DNA from: Sandarakinorhabdus limnophila DSM 17366
GTDB lineage: Bacteria; Pseudomonadota; Alphaproteobacteria; Sphingomonadales; Sphingomonadaceae
Length of the DNA: 64,000 nt
Assembly: GCF_000420765.1 (NCBI RefSeq)
Contig: NZ_ATVO01000010.1
Location: 1-64,000, forward strand
Direction of reading: 5' to 3'
Below, piece after piece: positions 1,194-10,395 of the stretch. The notes under the pieces are model-generated. The model searched no databases. It had not been told where the DNA came from and saw nothing but the letters and a program-made list of their open reading frames with translations. The position numbers and the translations under genes are program-made. Position 1 is the stretch's first letter; each line of letters starts with the position of its first letter.

Positions 1194-1730
1194 CTAGTAA
1201 GGCCTCTCAAATAAGCAGCGAACCCTGAAAGAACTTGATTCCCGCTTGTCCGCCCGAGAACCAATTTTAAAAAAATGAATATAGGCACCGATATCGATAT
1301 TGACGTCTGTAAATTCAAAATCATTATTTTCTTTGGGAACCCTCACAATCCACATATTGGAGGAAAAGTTAATGGAGCCACGACTGACGGCTGCATAAAT
1401 GTCAGTTGCTTTGGAAACACCACCAAGAGCAGGTGGGGCAACCTCAATAGACAAGGCAACATCATAGCCCGGACGCGCACGCAGCCTAACCTGGCCGGAA
1501 TAAGACGGAGTACGCGATGACAGACTAAGTCCTGATGACAGTGAAATAGCACCGTTAGGGCTTATCAGTGCCCACCCGGATTCAAGGCCCGGTTGGTATC
1601 TGAGCAAGCCAAGGTCTAGATCGCGTGTCGTAAAGACCGTTGATTTTTCACAAGACGCATGAGCTGGAGATGCGAAAAGCGCGATGCCTCCCAACAGCAA
1701 AGCGGTGGCAAGTCGCAGGCGACTATTCAT
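1194..1730 (-). CDS. Small secreted protein of the pilus operon
   Basis: The product is 178 aa from ATG 1730, which overlaps the end of the usher gene by 8 bases. An alternative ATG lies seven codons upstream. A signal peptide is clear (MNSRLRLATALLLGGIALF, cleavage after SPAHA). The mature part is beta-rich with two cysteines (SCEKS near the start and VRCLFE near the end), as in donor-strand pilins or minor tip subunits. Its position as the last gene after the usher suggests a minor pilin or adhesin. It may belong to the DUF4402 or spore-coat-U-like secreted family, which I infer only from context and composition. Confidence 0.65.
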   Translation of the reverse strand: MNSRLRLATALLLGGIALFASPAHASCEKSTVFTTRDLDLGLLRYQPGLESGWALISPNGAISLSSGLSLSSRTPSYSGQVRLRARPGYDVALSIEVAPPALGGVSKATDIYAAVSRGSINFSSNMWIVRVPKENNDFEFTDVNIDIGAYIHFFKIGSRADKRESSSFRVRCLFERPY

Positions 1731-4506
1731 GCTCGGATGACCAATCCGCAAACGCTACTATAATTTCCAAGCCTGCAACCGAAGTGCTGTCTTTTGAAAT
1801 GGTAATTTTTTTCTTCGCACGGAATTCCTTCCTGCTTTTCGACAAGCGATCTGTCGAGGCAATCACAGTCCAGTTTCCGGCTAGCAAATCTTCGATGCTG
1901 AATGACCCGTCTGACAAGGCCTTGGCGCTCCGGATCAGATCCCCAGCAGCATTTAGAACCTCCACCTTCGCCAATGGCACGGGCCGCTTCTCGCCATTCT
2001 TGCCCTCAAAAAGGACCGTGCCATCCAAAGAAATGGCATCCACCACCGGAACATCGAGTTTGAAAACTCGGCCAGGCCGGGGTTTCACGATCACATTGTT
2101 GAAAAGCGTGGTCTGAAACTCGTCCTTGAGGCGTTCGCCGCCAATGTTGAAAACAGACCCGTTTCCAGGCTCCAGATCCCAAATGAGCAGATCACGAGAG
2201 GGATCCAGGCCACCCCGCATTTGCACGCCGTTCACGCCGATCTCGAGACCGCGAACTGCTTCCTCGCCAACGCCAAACTTGCCGTCAAGATTGCTATCGC
2301 GAAATGGCCGGATCATGATGCCGCCAAGCCTCGAACGCTGCCGGCTGCTCATATTCACGCCAACACCGCGATGGGCGCCGAAAGAAAAGCCCATCTGCGC
2401 CGCCACTTCGCCGCGGCCTTGTGCGTATGATCCAGAAACACCAAGGGTCAATTTTCGTTTGATCTCCAATTGGGCGGACCCGGAAAAACCAACGCCCCCG
2501 TTGAAATTGTAACTCGCTCCCAAGGAATAGATCTCGCGTTCCGTGCGCCTGTAAAAACCGCTCAGATTGAGCAGGTTGGACTTTATTCCGCCATCTATGG
2601 TCGCACCATATTCGCCACGGATTTGGAAGTTCCCCTGATCATATGAAGTGATGGCGCGATACCTGCCGCCCACTTTGCTCCATGCCCCAGCACCCAGACG
2701 GGAACGGTTCAGTGCGATCTCATGACTAATGGGTAGTGACCAAAGGCCATGCGAATAAAATATGCTCACCATGTCGTTGGTGAACCCGCTTTTTCGCACC
2801 GAGCGCTCAGCGAAGATCGCGGCGCTCCCGGCGTCGATCAGGCCAAAGCCCAGAGGAACGCTCGTCGATATCGAATATCGATCCTTGATGGCTGTCGGTC
2901 CAAATCCGGTAGCGTTCGACCCAAACTGCTTGTTCGCTTTCTCTATGCCCAATGTCACCCCTCGCCCCACAAATGGAATAGATGCCGAACCATAGAACGC
3001 CAAGCCGCCAAGTGGGTGTTGATTCACGATACCCAGCGTCGCAGGGATGTTTCCGATCTGTATGCGTGATTCCAATGCCCGATAGCTCTGGGTCCCGATC
3101 GGATCAGGATCGTTTCCCTGAAGCTGGCAAGGTGACACTCGCGACGCTTGGACGCTCAAGGTGAGAAACGTGGTCACTCCCCAGTCACCGCGCAGGGCGT
3201 AGTTTACACCATCCGTTCCACAGGCTGCGGCAGGGTCAAGGCCCAATAGCGTTTTGCCGGGCTGCAAGACCGTACCCCATCCGTAGACCTTGCCAGGTGG
3301 CAGCAAACCCGCTGAGACGCTTTGACTAAAGTCCCTTTCCTCCACCAAACCATTTGGCCCATAGAGGACAACCTTGATCGCATTCGATCCGTAGACGATA
3401 TTCACATCCCGAAACAGGAACCGTCCGTCATCTCCGATCCGTTGATAATCGCGCAATTGGCCCGCGACATATAACTCGGCGGTCCACCCGGGCAGCGCAT
3501 TTCCGTCAATCGACGTTTTGTTGAAACTGTCCGTAAGCGTCACAGGGGCAGCCTCCACCCGCATCCCAACGCCGCGTCCCAAGCTGCCAACCATCGGCGC
3601 CGCCTGACCCTGCACATCGCCAGCCATCACGGAATATAGTCCGCCAATGCCGAACATGTCGCCACCCGGATCCGTGCGGCCAGCAATCCATCGTCCACTT
3701 TTCAATCCGCGCTCATCTCCGTTCAAAAGGATGTGATTTGTCAAAAAAGCCAATTCCGATGAAGCATTTATGTTGTAAGATGTGTTCGATCGTTTCGATG
3801 CGAATTCGTAGCTATTGTTAAAAATAATGTCAGCTTGAATTCCCGAAAAAAGCGCGTAATCGAATTTGACCGGCAGGGCGCCGCGACCATTCACTTGCGG
3901 GTATTGGTTGCCAATTTTCGTCCGCGCGTTTTCCCGCATAACACGAAAGTCTCGGTTCAACGGCCGGTCACTCGAAACTGAGATGTAGCCCTCGCTGGGT
4001 CGACCGGAAATTATAAATTTGAAAAACCGATTTAGAATTGTCTGATTCAAGAAAACCTGTTCGTCAACAATGCTGACTGCGTCACCATAGGTTTCGGCCA
4101 AATCACCCATTTTTATGATACGTGCGTTCGTATCAATAACCACTCCTTCGGCGCCATTGGCTATTTTGATGCTGATCAAATTCTCTTTACGGAAAAATAT
4201 GCCCTCACCAAAATCCGTGATCGCCGCGATCGGAAGCCATATTTGCCCCTCGCCTCCGATCAGAACTTCCTGAAAATCCGGCAGCACAGCGCCATTGACA
4301 CGCAGTTCCACAACACTTGCCCGCGGTTTGGCAATGGGCTCGACATCAGTTGCCTTCAGCATCGTGGACGAAGAAAATGCCAGCAGGCCTATCAAAAGAT
4401 GCGTTGCAAATTGAAGCGGTAGAAAGGGGCGGAACAGAGCATTGGCGGCCAGAACACACCGCGTAATCCCCCTGACTGCGTCGGAGGCACGCTGGATTTT
4501 AGCCAT
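1723..4506 (-). CDS. Outer-membrane usher of a chaperone-usher pilus
   Basis: This is a 927-aa usher protein that forms the outer-membrane pore through which chaperone-bound pilin subunits are assembled and exported. A hydrophobic export signal lies around residues 33-52 (THLLIGLLAFSSS). It is followed by a periplasmic N-terminal part and a long Gly/Ser/aromatic beta-barrel region. An usher plug-type sequence (DGRFLFRDVNIVYGSNAIKV) appears in the middle, and two Ig-like C-terminal modules end it (FRDSNLDGKFGVGEE, then KVEVLNAAGDLIRS). The length fits PapC/FimD/CfaC-type ushers, and the sequence style resembles the alternative (CS1/sigma-type) branch. It lies 33 bases after the chaperone gene and overlaps the next gene. 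Confidence 0.8.
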   Translation of the reverse strand: MAKIQRASDAVRGITRCVLAANALFRPFLPLQFATHLLIGLLAFSSSTMLKATDVEPIAKPRASVVELRVNGAVLPDFQEVLIGGEGQIWLPIAAITDFGEGIFFRKENLISIKIANGAEGVVIDTNARIIKMGDLAETYGDAVSIVDEQVFLNQTILNRFFKFIISGRPSEGYISVSSDRPLNRDFRVMRENARTKIGNQYPQVNGRGALPVKFDYALFSGIQADIIFNNSYEFASKRSNTSYNINASSELAFLTNHILLNGDERGLKSGRWIAGRTDPGGDMFGIGGLYSVMAGDVQGQAAPMVGSLGRGVGMRVEAAPVTLTDSFNKTSIDGNALPGWTAELYVAGQLRDYQRIGDDGRFLFRDVNIVYGSNAIKVVLYGPNGLVEERDFSQSVSAGLLPPGKVYGWGTVLQPGKTLLGLDPAAACGTDGVNYALRGDWGVTTFLTLSVQASRVSPCQLQGNDPDPIGTQSYRALESRIQIGNIPATLGIVNQHPLGGLAFYGSASIPFVGRGVTLGIEKANKQFGSNATGFGPTAIKDRYSISTSVPLGFGLIDAGSAAIFAERSVRKSGFTNDMVSIFYSHGLWSLPISHEIALNRSRLGAGAWSKVGGRYRAITSYDQGNFQIRGEYGATIDGGIKSNLLNLSGFYRRTEREIYSLGASYNFNGGVGFSGSAQLEIKRKLTLGVSGSYAQGRGEVAAQMGFSFGAHRGVGVNMSSRQRSRLGGIMIRPFRDSNLDGKFGVGEEAVRGLEIGVNGVQMRGGLDPSRDLLIWDLEPGNGSVFNIGGERLKDEFQTTLFNNVIVKPRPGRVFKLDVPVVDAISLDGTVLFEGKNGEKRPVPLAKVEVLNAAGDLIRSAKALSDGSFSIEDLLAGNWTVIASTDRLSKSRKEFRAKKKITISKDSTSVAGLEIIVAFADWSSEHE

Positions 4507-4539
4507 CCTCGGTACGAACCATCCGCCTGAATTGGCCGA

Positions 4540-5337
4540 TTAGGCGCCACACACGTTGGCGTAGGGCTCGCCCTGTGCAGGGAAATTGTCCCAAACCCTG
4601 AGGCAGTATTTTCCAGCTTTTCCCTGCGGGAAACGCTCGCGCGGCATTCCCACCTTGGCTTCGGCTCCTGCCTGACCAAGGTGCAAGCGCCCGCGGCTCA
4701 GTTCCGCGCCCGTTTCAGCGTCGACCACTTGAACCGTGCCGATAAAGCTTCGGTCACGATGCTGCTTGACGGCCGTAAAATAGCCCAGCGAATCCGGATC
4801 ATCAGGCGTCAGCGTCAGCGGGCGCAGATCCACACGTGGCGCCTCAATCCTGTGCCGGACATAAACCGTGACAGGAAGCACGGGAACGATCGGCACTCTC
4901 ACTGCGATCAACGGCTCTTTGGTTTTATCATCACTGTTGGCCAAAGTGTTTATCGCGTTTCGTTGCAATTCTGCGCGAACCGAAAATTGATAGGCATACT
5001 CACCTGGCGCAAGTTCAGGCGTTGGTCGTGCCGCAACACGGAATGCTTGGGATCGGTGCGCAGGTGCAACCGAACGTGCCGGGGCCCAGCGGAGCACAGC
5101 TTCGGCTGAATTGATGATGCCTGCGCCTTCCGTTTTCGGAGAGACCGAAAATTCCACTGGATCATCACTGCCATTGACCAGATCGATCTGTCCCGACCGC
5201 GCATTGGCGTCGATCACGATGATATTGTCAGAAATGGAAACAGTGATCCTGCCCGCGTCTTGCGCGTTGGCCGATGGCGCAGACAGAACTGCAAAAGCCA
5301 CTGTCGTTGCCAGGCAGCTGATCCTCGGAATATGCAT
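4540..5337 (-). CDS. Periplasmic pilus chaperone (PapD-like)
   Basis: The product is 265 aa from ATG 5337, preceded by AAAGGACATTT as ribosome-binding site. Longer in-frame starts upstream lack the signal peptide at their N-terminus. The signal peptide is MHIPRISCLATTVAFAVLSA, cleaved near ANAQD. The mature protein opens with an Ig-like segment (GRITVSISDNIIVID, then LVNGSDDPVEFSVSPKT), as in molecular chaperones that donate a strand to pilin subunits. It sits between pilin and usher genes, which supports the role. Sequence similarity to classical PapD is weak, so the call depends partly on context. Confidence 0.7.
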   Translation of the reverse strand: MHIPRISCLATTVAFAVLSAPSANAQDAGRITVSISDNIIVIDANARSGQIDLVNGSDDPVEFSVSPKTEGAGIINSAEAVLRWAPARSVAPAHRSQAFRVAARPTPELAPGEYAYQFSVRAELQRNAINTLANSDDKTKEPLIAVRVPIVPVLPVTVYVRHRIEAPRVDLRPLTLTPDDPDSLGYFTAVKQHRDRSFIGTVQVVDAETGAELSRGRLHLGQAGAEAKVGMPRERFPQGKAGKYCLRVWDNFPAQGEPYANVCGA

Positions 5338-5702
5338 AAATGTCCTTTGGCGCCGATGGGTCGATGGGGTTAAGCATTGCAGCGTTCCGGGATGACACGG
5401 TCGCTGCGCTGTATCGGCTGTCGTTAGGGCGTTCGATTTCGCAGGGGCGTCAAAGGTGTCGGCCACTATGAACGGAGGGACCGATCTGCAGTGGTGCCTA
5501 TCGTTGCCCGATCAATATGGGCTTCAGCGCAAGTTGCAGGCCAACCAACGCGGCAGCACAGGGGAACTAGCCGCCTGCTCCTTCATGCCCAAACGAGCCG
5601 CATTACCAGCGCACCATCACTGAACAGATGAAGGATGCTGCCGGGCTGTGGTGCCCAATCAAGATGTGGGGAGCACCCAAGGTGCTCCCCACACAAGAAC
5701 TG
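5338..5702. other. Pilin-chaperone intergenic spacer
   Basis: These 365 bases separate the pilin stop from the chaperone start. I see no credible gene in them. They contain the strong hairpin at 5665-5693 and a leader of about 130 bases before the chaperone ATG that is open but has no coding features. Confidence 0.6.
5665..5693 (-). terminator. 13-bp perfect hairpin after the pilin gene
   Basis: Arms at 5665-5677 and 5681-5693 pair perfectly over 13 bp with a 3-nt loop, ten bases after the pilin stop codon on the minus strand. There is no long T run after it. It is therefore more likely a partial terminator or 3'-end stabiliser that keeps pilin mRNA in excess over chaperone and usher mRNA, as in other pilus operons. 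Confidence 0.7.
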
Positions 5703-6344
5703 TTATGGCGTCGTTGTGGTCGTCGTGAGCTCCTGGTCACTCGCAAGCACCTGCGCTGCGTCTAGAGTGGCGTAGCCACCGTAGTTTCCGGTCACAATAG
5801 TTTGAGGAACCGTGAGAACACCGACAACGCGGAACGTGCCGGTGCCAATTCCGTTAATGACGACGCCAGTGCCTCCAAGGCTAAGGTTCGCAGTCATGGT
5901 TGCCAAGGTGGCAGGAGTGGACAAGTTGTTGTGGGCCGAAGGACCAAAGGACAGGTTGGTTGCACCTGCAATCGAGGTTTGGATCGTCTTTGACAGATTG
6001 TTCGACCCGGAAACAGTGCAAGTCGCTGCAACCGGAGCCGTGTAGCCTGCTGCCAAGCCAGCACCGGTGGTGTTACCACCAGGGGTTGCCGTTGTCACAC
6101 CGGTCGAATTGTTGGCACTGACAGTGAGCGTAATGGTCGTTGTGCCGCCAGTGGTCCGGGTGGGGATGCGCCAGACGCCGAAATTGACCGAGTCACAGGT
6201 CATCGACAGCACCGGGCTAAGGCCCGCAAGGGCGTCGACCGAAGCGATCACGCTATCCGCACTCTGGGCTTGCGCCGGCACGGCCGCCAATGTCGTTGCC
6301 GCCAGCACGGCAGCCATTAGCGGAAGATTTGACTTAACACGCAT
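5703..6344 (-). CDS. Major pilin-like secreted protein
   Basis: The product is 213 aa from ATG 6344, chosen because AAGGAAGG lies just upstream and the signal peptide (MRVKSNLPLMAAVLAATTLA, cleavage after AQAQ) then starts correctly. The mature protein is Ser/Thr/Gly/Ala-rich and beta-prone with two cysteines (SMTCDSVNFGVW and AATCTVSGS). The sequence CDSVNFG recalls spore-coat-U and DUF4402 pilin subunits. It is the first gene of the operon and is followed by a hairpin, as expected for the abundant structural subunit. The exact family is uncertain. Confidence 0.65.
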   Translation of the reverse strand: MRVKSNLPLMAAVLAATTLAAVPAQAQSADSVIASVDALAGLSPVLSMTCDSVNFGVWRIPTRTTGGTTTITLTVSANNSTGVTTATPGGNTTGAGLAAGYTAPVAATCTVSGSNNLSKTIQTSIAGATNLSFGPSAHNNLSTPATLATMTANLSLGGTGVVINGIGTGTFRVVGVLTVPQTIVTGNYGGYATLDAAQVLASDQELTTTTTTP

Positions 6345-6808
6345 AGGAATGCCTTCCTTTTTGGGATCTGTTTCACTCATTTGAACAAATCTGATATTTT
6401 ATGAATGATAAATGATCATGTTGTCAAATTTTTTCCGCCATATGTGGGCCGACATGCGTGTCGTGACCAGAATGCCCTGCCCCGTGCGATTTCTGGGTGG
6501 AACAGCTGCCGGTTTTATATCGGTGCGAGAAGGGGTTGGTTGAAGCGGAAGTGATTGTGCATCTGCCGGTGAAGCGATGAGCGCCGGCGCTGGCTCTTGC
6601 AGAAGGTGGGACACCGGCCTTCGAAGCACCGGATCTCTCATTCCGGGGGCCGCGTAACCAGGACAGGGCAAATTTCGTTGCCCCACATTGCAAGATATGA
6701 CATCGGATGCGCACCGCTGAGGGTAGGTAGGGGTTTTTTGCTTCGCACCTTTTTGCGCGGCGCCGTCCTTTGGGTCGGCTTTTCTCGTCATAAAGTGAAT
6801 GTTTCCAG
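6345..6808. other. Divergent promoter region, pilus operon / two-component genes
   Basis: These 464 bases lie between the pilin start and the response-regulator start. A consensus promoter for the pilin side is at 6399-6427. The remainder (about 6430-6800) has open frames on the minus strand, but none has a plausible start, codon pattern or recognisable family. Confidence 0.55.
6399..6427 (-). promoter_or_regulatory. Candidate promoter of the pilus operon
   Basis: On the minus strand a perfect -35 box TTGACA (6427-6422) is followed after exactly 17 bases by TCATAA (6404-6399). Transcription would start about 48 bases before the pilin ATG. The spacer is AT-rich and carries an ATGATCAT palindrome that a regulator could use. 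Confidence 0.55.
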
Positions 6809-7507
6809 ATGACTGAAACGCCCATCTCGCAAGTTTGTATCGTCGACGACGATAGCGATTTTGTGGAATTCCTTGGCCAATATCTCGAAGTGCGTGGCCT
6901 TGCGGCCAGCGGCTTTGCAACGGCAGAAGCGCTGCTCAAGTCGAGCGATCTCGCCAAGTTTGATTTTTTCATTCTCGATCTGGGGCTGCCGGGTATCGAC
7001 GGAGTTGATCTGATCACCCTGCTCCGCGCGCGAACGAACGCCGGCATATTGGTGATCAGCGGCAGAATGGGGCCGGACGCCTTCAATTCCGCACTCTCGG
7101 CAGGCGCGGATATGTTCATCAACAAACCCATACGGTTTGATCAGGTTTATAATGCCATCGCGTCCGTTTGCCGGCGCATGTCGTTGCGCATTGTTGGCAA
7201 TTCGCCGTGGCGACTGTTGGTCAAGCGCTCCGAACTCGTCGCGCCCGATGGCGGCACGGTCAGCCTCACGCCCGTCGAACTCAAGATCCTGCATCGCCTG
7301 TTCGACGATCCATCCCAGGTGGTGACCCGCCAGCAGCTGTCTGATGCCGCAGGCATCATCACCAGCGGCGACGATCGTAATCTCGACTCTGCAATCTTTC
7401 GCCTGCGCCGCAAGATAGAGAAAGAGGCATCCCAGCCTTCACCGCTCAAGACCGTGCATGGTCTTGGTTACCAGGTTTTCAAACCGGTCGAGATCATTCA
7501 CCCCTGA
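6809..7507 (+). CDS. OmpR-type response regulator
   Basis: The product is 232 aa. The receiver domain occupies residues about 8-122, with the acidic pocket DDD at 13-15, phospho-acceptor D57 (FFILDLGLPG), S84 (VISGR) and K106 (INKPIRF). The winged-helix DNA-binding domain follows at about 130-227 (VSLTPVELKILHRL, then LKTVHGLGYQVF). It would be phosphorylated by the histidine kinase(s) encoded directly downstream. It is divergent from the pilus operon, so control of the pilus genes is a reasonable inference, not shown by the sequence. Confidence 0.9.
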   Translation: MTETPISQVCIVDDDSDFVEFLGQYLEVRGLAASGFATAEALLKSSDLAKFDFFILDLGLPGIDGVDLITLLRARTNAGILVISGRMGPDAFNSALSAGADMFINKPIRFDQVYNAIASVCRRMSLRIVGNSPWRLLVKRSELVAPDGGTVSLTPVELKILHRLFDDPSQVVTRQQLSDAAGIITSGDDRNLDSAIFRLRRKIEKEASQPSPLKTVHGLGYQVFKPVEIIHP

Positions 7508-7519
7508 GCATGCTCACCA

Positions 7520-8935
7520 ATGCCCCAATCAACCTATCTTGATAATCTCGTTTACGTCTATCTGGGCGTTATGGGGGCCTTCGCCGTAGCCCAGCTGTTG
7601 CAGCTGCGGCCCACGAACCGGGTGCACATAGGCCTTTGGCTGATCGCCAGTTTCTTGTCTGCCTTTGGCGTCCTCTTTTATCTCAATGTTGCCCGTATAT
7701 CGTTCGAAAACTTCACCATTTTTGGGCCGCTGGCCTCAATCGCAGGCGGCTTTCTGCGGTTTTTCGCCTTTAGCTACCGCAGGCACACGTTTCACAAAAG
7801 CCGCTTGGCGCGAGCCTGCATGTGGTCTTCACTGGCTGCAATCCCGTTCATTGCCGTGCCGGCGCTGTCGCCTTACCGGCTCTTGATCGGTTCCAGCATC
7901 GGGACACTGCTGGCGGCCGCCTGCTTTTTTGCGGTACTGCACAATCCCATCTGGAAATCCCGCGCCAGCGCACCGGTCGCCGCGTCCCTGATTGCATTGG
8001 GGATTACCTGTGTGGCAATGGCAGCCCGCGCGGCAACCGCCTACCCGTTCACCGCAGATCAGACGTTCATCGGCCAATCTGAACTGCAAAAACGGGGACT
8101 CGAGAGCGTCGTCCTGATGACTTTTTTCATGCAGCTCGCATTTACCGCGATGATTGTGGATCTACGCGCGCGCGAAGATGCGCGTAATGACCGCATCTCC
8201 ATTCGGATCGCTCAGCGCAACAAAAGATTGCACAAACGCGCCCAGGAAACCGCGAATGTCGCCCGGGCGCGCCTTGATCTCGTCCAGTTGCTGACGCACG
8301 AAGTGCGCCAACCCATCACCAATGCGCAAGCGTCTCTGCAGTCGATCAGTCAGAAACTCCGATCGACGAAAAATACGCCAAATAATGCGTCCTTTGCGCT
8401 CAAGAGTGCGCAATCATCGCTGGACCATATCACCTTATCCTTGTCCAACATCATCGTTGCCTCGACGATACTTTCTGATGAACGCAAATGGGCGACTGAT
8501 GAAGTCGATGCATATGCGGCTCTTAAAATGTCTATATTGGATTTCGATAACGAAAATCAGGGCCGTATAAAAATCACGTTTACTGAAAATGCTATTTACA
8601 TCGAAAGTATATCAATTCTCTTGCGATTGGTTCTCCAAAATATTATCGAATTTGCAATCAAATTTTCAAATCCAGATAGTGACATCGATGCTCATTTGAA
8701 AATTGACTTCGAACTCGAAATGGTTGTTTTCGATATCGGTTTCTTGTCGGCTGATGCCCACCCTTTGAACCAGGGCATCTTCGAACGACGTCCGAGCACT
8801 GACACCGAACCTTCCGGAATTTCATCGCTCGGCCTGTTTGTCGTGCGTCAGATTGCGCGCGAACTGGGCGGCGAGGTCCGATTGTTGGACACAGTGCCGG
8901 GCCGGCAAAATTTTCAACTCGCGCTGCCTTGCTAG
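7520..8935 (+). CDS. Membrane histidine kinase with degenerate ATP-binding motifs
   Basis: The product is 471 aa and starts 12 bases after the response regulator. About seven hydrophobic segments fill residues 10-215, followed by a coiled stretch and a phospho-acceptor motif at H260 (LLTHEVRQPITNAQ). The catalytic domain is altered. The N-box reads NIIEFAIKFS with F378 where the Mg-binding asparagine is expected. The G2 region is GISSLGL rather than GxGxGL. D405 of the G1 box (VFDIGF) is kept. It may be inactive alone or work with the second kinase. The stretch around 8510-8720 is AT-rich compared with its neighbours. Confidence 0.8.
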   Translation: MPQSTYLDNLVYVYLGVMGAFAVAQLLQLRPTNRVHIGLWLIASFLSAFGVLFYLNVARISFENFTIFGPLASIAGGFLRFFAFSYRRHTFHKSRLARACMWSSLAAIPFIAVPALSPYRLLIGSSIGTLLAAACFFAVLHNPIWKSRASAPVAASLIALGITCVAMAARAATAYPFTADQTFIGQSELQKRGLESVVLMTFFMQLAFTAMIVDLRAREDARNDRISIRIAQRNKRLHKRAQETANVARARLDLVQLLTHEVRQPITNAQASLQSISQKLRSTKNTPNNASFALKSAQSSLDHITLSLSNIIVASTILSDERKWATDEVDAYAALKMSILDFDNENQGRIKITFTENAIYIESISILLRLVLQNIIEFAIKFSNPDSDIDAHLKIDFELEMVVFDIGFLSADAHPLNQGIFERRPSTDTEPSGISSLGLFVVRQIARELGGEVRLLDTVPGRQNFQLALPC

Positions 8936-8991
8936 AGCTATGCGACACCCCCTTCCCCGCGCCTCGCGCCTGATCACCGAGCACTCACCAC

Positions 8992-10395
8992 ATGGGCAAT
9001 GACAGTTCCATCGCAATCTTGCTTGTGTTTTATGGGATTCAATTACTGACATTTAGCGCGATACTGCTTCTACTTGTCAAAAATGAACTTCGAACCCCAA
9101 TTCTGTTCTGGATTGGCGCAAACATCATAGCCGTGATTGAAATAATAGCCAGATTGGCATCTTTTAAACCAACGGTAAGCCCTCTTATACCTGTCTCAAT
9201 GGCTATTTTATCTGCTCTATCGGGTTTAATTCGATATTACTCAATAAGGTATGGAAGAAAATCATCTCCTTATTATAATTTTGTATTAATTTTTATTTTT
9301 CTAATTTGGATTATTGTGCCCGCTATTAAAATTGGCTGGCTCAGTTCGTTTTTAGCCTACTCCGCCGGAGCTGCTCTTTTGCTGTTGAGCGCGTGGGAAG
9401 CCAATCGGAACCCACTCTGGAAAGGGCTGGCGGGCCGTCCCATCGTCATCGCCGGCTTCCTGCTCTGCGCTGCAGCGGTCTTCTGGCGCGGGACGCTGTT
9501 CATTGCCAGCCAAAGCGGTGATCAATCCGTTGTGAATGTTACCACGACACTGACCGGGATAACGCTGGTCAGTCTTTCCTCACTTATGCTGCAGATCGGC
9601 TTCCTCAGCCTGATCGCCGGCCACGATTTGCGTAACCGCCGGCTCAGGGACCAAAAGACCGCAGAAGCACTGGAGATCAGCCGCGGCATGGCGGAGGAGC
9701 AGCTTGTTATGGAAACGGTGGCCAATGAGCGGCTCGACATGATCAGTCTGCTCACGCATGAGGTACGCCAGCCGATTAATAGCGCCCAGGCGGCACTCGA
9801 AGCGCTTGCCCGGGAGACAAAAGGTTCGGCGCCCGCAGACGGTGAGATGCGCGACGCCCTTGTTCGGGCCCAAAGCGTCCTTGATGGGATCACCCTCTCA
9901 ATCTCAAACGCGATCCTCGGCGTGTCTTTGATTGATAACAAGCAAGCCATCACCACCTTCGCCTCAGACCTCGTGGAGATTGTGGAACTCGCGCTCAGCG
10001 ATTGTCCGGCGGAGCAGCGCCACCGCATCCACATTCACGGCGCAGCCAGCGCGGTGTTCAGCAATCTTGATCCCGTGCTGATCCGGCTCGCCCTGCGCAA
10101 CCTGTTCGACAATGCCCTCAAATATTCCCCACAAGACAGTTCGGTGCATGTCGAGATCGCGCAGGATGATCAGCGGCTTGGTGCATCCATCAAGGTCTCC
10201 AACCAGATCAAGGACGCGTCCGGCCTGAACGACGACATGTTTGGGCGCCGTGTGAGAGGCGAAAAAGTTGATGTTGAAGGCTCAGGACATGGCCTTTACC
10301 TGGTCGAAAAGGTCGCAGCCGCGCACAATGGTACCATCAGCTATGATGTTAAGGATGGACAGCGCGTGACCTTCGATCTTTTTATTCCAGACTGA
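8992..10395 (+). CDS. Second membrane histidine kinase, paralogue of the preceding one
   Basis: The product is 467 aa with the same architecture as its neighbour: six to seven membrane segments (residues 8-210), a helical linker, and H256 in LLTHEVRQPINSAQ. Here the N-box is canonical (NLFDNALKYS, N370 and N374) and the G2 box is intact (GSGHGLYLVEK). The G1 region reads VSNQIKDASG, where an Asp is expected, so the adenine-binding Asp appears missing. It is the mirror image of the first kinase's defects. The membrane part at 9100-9360 is strikingly AT-rich, a sign of foreign origin or rapid divergence. Confidence 0.8.
   Translation: MGNDSSIAILLVFYGIQLLTFSAILLLLVKNELRTPILFWIGANIIAVIEIIARLASFKPTVSPLIPVSMAILSALSGLIRYYSIRYGRKSSPYYNFVLIFIFLIWIIVPAIKIGWLSSFLAYSAGAALLLLSAWEANRNPLWKGLAGRPIVIAGFLLCAAAVFWRGTLFIASQSGDQSVVNVTTTLTGITLVSLSSLMLQIGFLSLIAGHDLRNRRLRDQKTAEALEISRGMAEEQLVMETVANERLDMISLLTHEVRQPINSAQAALEALARETKGSAPADGEMRDALVRAQSVLDGITLSISNAILGVSLIDNKQAITTFASDLVEIVELALSDCPAEQRHRIHIHGAASAVFSNLDPVLIRLALRNLFDNALKYSPQDSSVHVEIAQDDQRLGASIKVSNQIKDASGLNDDMFGRRVRGEKVDVEGSGHGLYLVEKVAAAHNGTISYDVKDGQRVTFDLFIPD

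Follow-up and report, generated by a model that had tools for sequence, protein, structure and literature searches.

Reports of natural heterodimers between sensor kinases have been called rare (PMC12675982). In the FasBC-FasA system, two-hybrid assays revealed exclusively heterodimers of FasB and FasC; a FasC fragment consisting of the membrane part and the dimerisation and phosphoacceptor (DHp) part complements, FasC H246 is required, and the kinase domain is supplied by FasB (PMC12675982). Variation at single positions of the ATP site is documented as well: the Asp of the G1 box is replaced by Asn in VanSA, VanSC and ThkA, with a hydrogen bond from Asn to adenine in ThkA (PMC10017428), and likewise in AgrC (PMC10482373); VanSA and VanSC, with Asn at this position, bind ATP weakly, and the second Asn of the N-box coordinates the metal of ATP-Mg (PMC10017428). 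The DNA analysed here (64,000 nucleotides, positions 1 to 64,000 of contig NZ_ATVO01000010.1 of Sandarakinorhabdus limnophila DSM 17366; referred to as the window) carries an operon of one response regulator gene and two genes for paralogous membrane histidine kinases, termed HK1 and HK2. Judged by its motifs, HK1 is the sole damaged kinase of the pair; the relation of the two proteins is asymmetric, a kinase with a pseudokinase and without reciprocity, and the best reading by analogy is a mixed dimer in which HK2 would provide the ATP and HK1 the histidine.

Operon layout and ATP-site motifs

The three genes are located on the forward strand. The first one (6809..7507) encodes a response regulator of the OmpR/PhoB type with receiver and Trans_reg_C domains (Pfam Response_reg 1.2e-19, Trans_reg_C 2.2e-16); its stop is separated by 12 nt from HK1 (7520..8935), the membrane histidine kinase homologue with the degenerate ATP site, which is followed after 56 nt by HK2 (8992..10395). 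HK1 and HK2 are full-length paralogs (26% identity, E 3e-35). According to the AlphaFold models, both possess a C-terminal ATP domain and, at the N-terminus, a bundle of six to seven long helices (read as membrane helices), the last of which continues into the DHp domain. HK2 combines the His phosphoacceptor domain with an ATP domain containing N, F and G2 boxes, as is typical of HisKA/HATPase_c kinases (Pfam HATPase_c 2.3e-13; HisKA 1.7e-5 in hmmscan with 25.2 bits at a cut-off of 26.9, and 27.4 bits, above the cut-off, in a separate run).

An earlier, sequence-only reading of this DNA had recognized the phosphoacceptor motif HEVRQP in both kinases (His260 of HK1, 8297..8299; His256 of HK2, 9757..9759), the intact N- and G2-boxes of HK2 (N370 and N374, 10099..10113; G430-S-G-H-G-L435, 10279..10296) and the loss of the N-box Asn in HK1, all of which agree with the present analysis: in the HK1 sequence LQNIIEFA (8639..8653), the first Asn (N374) is still present and the second is replaced by F378 (Tyr at that site in the ortholog of genome G1017). 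The glycines of the HK1 G2 box, which it had considered lost, are absent at the first two positions (I434 and S436 of I434-S-S-L-G438-L439, 8819..8836), but the third, G438, is kept. All family members share Gln at position +4 from the phosphoacceptor His in the HEVRQP motif of the DHp domain; this residue may serve phosphatase activity.

The assignment of the G1 Asp to HK1 did not hold. Alignment and AlphaFold models of the catalytic domains, the check proposed with that reading, placed a different residue at this position: in the family alignments, which are gapless in the G1 region, Phe408 of HK1 is opposite Asn404 of HK2 (10201..10203), and Asp405 of the HK1 segment D405-I-G-F408 (8732..8743) lies three residues upstream within the strand, where HK2 has Lys401 and the HK1 of G1017 has Gln. 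The latter protein reads Q-I-K-F in this region and thus likewise contains Phe at G1 and no Asp (its N-box site has been mentioned above). In the models, the strands of the hairpin comprise residues 389-396/401-410 in HK1 and 385-392/397-405 in HK2; their starts are offset by a constant four, in agreement with the gapless pairing of Phe408 and Asn404. A true DxGxG box with shortened hairpin, as the HK1 sequence VVFDIGFL might be read, is ruled out by the gapless alignment, the FQIKF of G1017 and the constant strand offset. (In a joint MAFFT alignment, the G1 hairpins of six ordinary kinases came out misplaced; this alignment was disregarded for G1.) HK1 therefore lacks residues for catalytic competence, with F378, F408, I434 and S436 replacing conserved ones; N374, K381 and G438 are retained.

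Relatives, age of the damage and selection

Relatives were sought in about 2000 genome slots, repeats included; ordinary kinases that matched the C-terminal half alone were set aside. The kinase family is present in eight genomes beyond the window's own, all of which belong to the same taxonomic family as the latter. G020 contains the same HK1-HK2 pair (96-97% identical to that of the window), and G1017, of another genus, an orthologous regulator-HK1-HK2 operon, the regulator of which is 72% identical to that of the window. G142 possesses a regulator and two kinases, both intact-looking and both with Asn at G1. One family kinase each occurs in G917, G813, G1151 and G1062 (regulator gene directly upstream seen in G917, G1151 and G1062), and in G1018, at the end of a contig, only a C-terminal piece of such a kinase (L056 7019-7519); this fragment has Ser at G1, another departure from Asp in the family. 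No additional full-length relatives emerged from a class-wide search, and order-wide searches added only G142; a scan of genome contigs found just a near-identical metagenome-assembled genome and an unrelated Blautia kinase, and the literature on sphingomonad pilus regulation and on the G1/N-box yielded little of direct bearing.

Both N-box Asn residues, the glycines of the G2 box and an Asn at G1 are present in all full-length family members except HK1; this Asn occupies G1 in 9/9 full-length non-HK1 rows of the alignment, four of them from the single-kinase genomes G917, G813, G1151 and G1062. The missing Asp of HK2 is therefore a family trait: the observation of the sequence-only reading was accurate in that HK2 has no Asp at this position, which is occupied by Asn404, but its interpretation as a defect is not supported. 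HK2 departs here from the canonical G1 Asp; its membership in the superfamily stands, as the variant is documented in active kinases, and a missing G1 Asp alone should not be equated with a dead kinase. By analogy with the weak binding in VanS, a reduced ATP affinity of HK2 is possible. In consequence, the notion of complementary defects in two half-active partners finds no support, since Asn is the standard residue of the HK2 type, present in partnerless kinases and in known active ones, and HK1 offers no complementing Asp; two paralogous kinases with one regulator, one of which has a ruined ATP site and a preserved His, are what remains of it.

The extent of the damage was assessed at 35 invariant positions (14 DHp and 21 ATP-domain positions), defined from the nine non-HK1 rows. 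The HK1 proteins of the window and of G1017 keep 14/14 DHp positions, including the His, the adjacent Glu and the Gln at +4, and have lost 12/21 and 9/21 ATP-domain positions, respectively; seven losses are common to both (P339, R369, N374, V402, N404, R422 and G430 in HK2 numbering). Were the losses random over the 35 positions, all would fall into the ATP domain with a probability of 0.0004 (window) and 0.004 (G1017). In leave-one-out controls, ordinary members lost 0-3 of 14-17 DHp positions and 0-5 of 21-26 ATP-domain positions; HK1 lost 12-13 of 21-23 of the latter. The HK1 proteins form one clade in the tree (100/100) and the HK2 proteins another (98/98), so that the damage to HK1 predates the split of the two genera; its recurrence in the G1017 ortholog marks it as old and retained. 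With regard to a common duplication of the G142 and window pairs, the approximately unbiased (AU) test gave p 0.046 against HKa grouping with HK1 and p 0.22 for HKb with HK2.

A comparison of the window with G020 gave a ratio of nonsynonymous to synonymous substitution rates (dN/dS) of 0.22 for HK1, overall as well as in its ATP domain, of 0.17 for the HK2 ATP domain, and of 0.05 and 0 for the DHp domains of the two kinases (few substitutions); the values are rough, being based on 7-8 amino-acid-changing substitutions per ATP domain. The ATP domain of HK1 thus shows signs of purifying selection and not of the drift of a dead gene. Its model superposes on ThkA (Z 18.0, rmsd (root-mean-square deviation) 2.0, 135 residues); models, structural matches and residue losses together reveal a kinase fold from which the catalytic residues are gone, as in a pseudokinase. 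The top structural neighbour of both the HK1 and the HK2 model is the pseudokinase DivL, tied or near-tied with ordinary kinases. The identity between HK1 and HK2 is highest in the DHp domain, with 33% and 43% in the two operons as compared to 24-30% in the ATP domain and 16-26% in the membrane part; this is to be expected of kinases that share a regulator and may co-dimerise.

Proposed division of labour between HK1 and HK2

The losses in HK1 strike the use of ATP and spare the parts for dimerisation, phosphate acceptance and phosphate transfer, which corresponds to the FasC pattern. We consider it somewhat more probable than the sum of its competitors that an OmpR-type regulator, a competent HK2 and the pseudokinase HK1 form one system, in which a mixed dimer would pass phosphate to the regulator and the divergent pilus-like genes would be controlled. 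HK1, its membrane sensor and DHp domain retained, would make no use of ATP and would pair with HK2 through the helices of the latter domain; HK2, with its ATP domain, would then phosphorylate His260 of HK1, as the analogy to FasBC and CheA3/CheA4 suggests, and/or its own His256, and the phosphate would proceed to the single regulator and from there act on the pilus-like genes. HK2 would do the chemistry, and HK1 would represent a second sensory input or set the balance of kinase and phosphatase activity. The competence of HK2 is supported by the HK2-type kinases with Asn at G1 that stand alone in four other genomes. Several points weigh against this reading: the contact of HK1 with HK2 is one that we infer, His260 would stay unphosphorylated if HK2 were a cis kinase, the independent HK1 lineages found are two only, and the N-box loss, as a feature of the sequence, is a strong yet indirect sign of lost catalysis in HK1.

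In the main rival, a serious one although clearly less probable, HK1 would act allosterically or as a phosphatase, after the manner of DivL or RetS: a second signal would tune HK2 or the phosphorylated regulator, and His260 would not be phosphorylated by HK2. The ATP-domain fold retained in the HK1 model, the structural neighbourhood of DivL (with the ties mentioned above) and the precedents of RetS/GacS and DivL/CckA are in line with it, and the conserved His, Glu and Gln +4 of the DHp domain could equally serve phosphatase activity. To our knowledge, DivL/CckA and RetS/GacS are not tandem paralogs with one shared regulator in one operon. A working HK1 with an unusual ATP site, whereby HK1 and HK2 would be parallel inputs to one regulator, is improbable; it could draw on the presence of the first N-box Asn, K381 and G438 and on the intact appearance of both kinases of the G142 tandem, but the second N-box Asn, the metal ligand of ATP-Mg (PMC10017428), has given way to Phe or Tyr in the two HK1 lineages, and the G1 residue, two G2 glycines (in the window) and several more invariant positions are lost too.

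Still lower must be rated the strict model of the sequence-only reading, an obligate heterodimer of two half-active kinases with complementary ATP-site defects. The motif losses do differ between HK1 and HK2, and Asn at G1 goes with weak ATP binding in VanSA/VanSC (AgrC is thought to be similar), so that HK2 alone might be weak; however, the occurrence of this Asn throughout the nine rows, single-kinase genomes included, and the Phe at G1 of HK1 make the model very unlikely, and completion of an ATP site by a residue of the partner's separate ATP domain is not expected. Hardly conceivable is a decaying HK1 gene whose role is gone: most ATP-site residues are lost, but the frame is open, an ortholog in another genus is similarly degenerate, dN/dS is as low as stated above and the invariant DHp positions are all conserved.

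A further-reaching form of the kinase-pseudokinase reading is an obligate alphaproteobacterial receptor, in which a weak Asn-type HK2 would signal only when bound to HK1 and phosphate would pass only via His260; we regard this as rather doubtful. If true, it would constitute, together with the one-kinase and two-intact-kinase operons, a natural series from a homodimeric sensor kinase to an obligate heterodimer. With its one-kinase, two-intact-kinase and kinase-plus-pseudokinase operons, this small sphingomonad family renders the transition from homodimer to division of labour testable in natural variants.

Adjacent putative surface-fibre genes and comparison with known systems

Divergent to the operon, on the reverse strand, lies a three-gene surface-fibre block (1723..6380), the likely target of the regulator, with an usher-like (1723-4506), a chaperone-like (4540-5466) and a secreted subunit gene (5703-6380), all named from reading of their sequences. 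Pfam and other database searches gave no strong family match for the proteins of the block, and the usher-like protein matched no sequence of the PDB; the subunit of G917 has a weak DUF4402 match. The intergenic region shared by subunit and regulator genes (6381..6808) is, by its position, the expected site of the target promoter, to which the regulator would bind; it is not conserved with G917. At the edge of the block, a transposase-type integrase (rve, HTH_21) is encoded at 38-964.

Window positions 1195-6319 are 88% identical in DNA to the block of G917 (L044 10352-15466), a genome of another genus; the similarity stops close to where the subunit gene starts. The G917 block is also divergent to a regulator-kinase operon of the same family, but to a different one with a single kinase, the adjacent genes sharing only 25-52% protein identity (kinase <30%, regulator 52%). 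From the sequences, it looks as if, through recombination, the fibre block had changed partners within a single regulator family. The operons of G142 and G1151 adjoin HfaB/CsgG-like genes and a gene for a large surface protein of repetitive sequence, and that of G1062 a very large RTX-repeat protein; in G142, the regulator-two-kinase operon (L022 7887-11561) is next to a gene for an HfaB/CsgG-like lipoprotein, and the repetitive surface protein has 1127 residues. Given these surface-structure genes beside the family operons, the regulator family likely controls surface attachment structures, and the HK1/HK2 pair probably the adjacent divergent pilus-like genes.

With one regulator gene and two linked genes for paralogous polytopic membrane kinases in a single operon, the locus is like FasB/FasC-FasA of group A Streptococcus, where one partner is a proposed pseudokinase with a needed His and a dispensable ATP domain, in parallel to HK1 (PMC12675982). 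In contrast to the ComE-like FasA, the regulator of the window is of OmpR type and HK2 is best matched by HATPase_c and HisKA; with its Response_reg and Trans_reg_C domains, the regulator places the locus outside the FasBC family, and the likeness is therefore restricted to the working principle. Unlike FasB/FasC, the HK family was confined to sphingomonads among the genomes searched, and its heterodimer is one that we infer. CheA3/CheA4 of Rhodobacter sphaeroides (PMC6829392) similarly split the functions of ATP domain and phosphoacceptor His between two proteins, but these are cytoplasmic members of the CheA family that have lost whole domains, whereas HK1 and HK2 keep all domains and HK1 has lost residues only. 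VanSA/VanSC, ThkA and AgrC are functional with Asp replaced by Asn at G1, as in HK2 and its relatives; in contrast to HK2, they are not described in PMC10017428 and PMC10482373 as having a pseudokinase twin. In DivL/CckA and RetS/GacS (PMC9491836, PMC12189002), a kinase-like protein modulates another one through direct interaction, as HK1 may do. The HK1/HK2 pair is thus real and old, a new member of a small kind that is already known.
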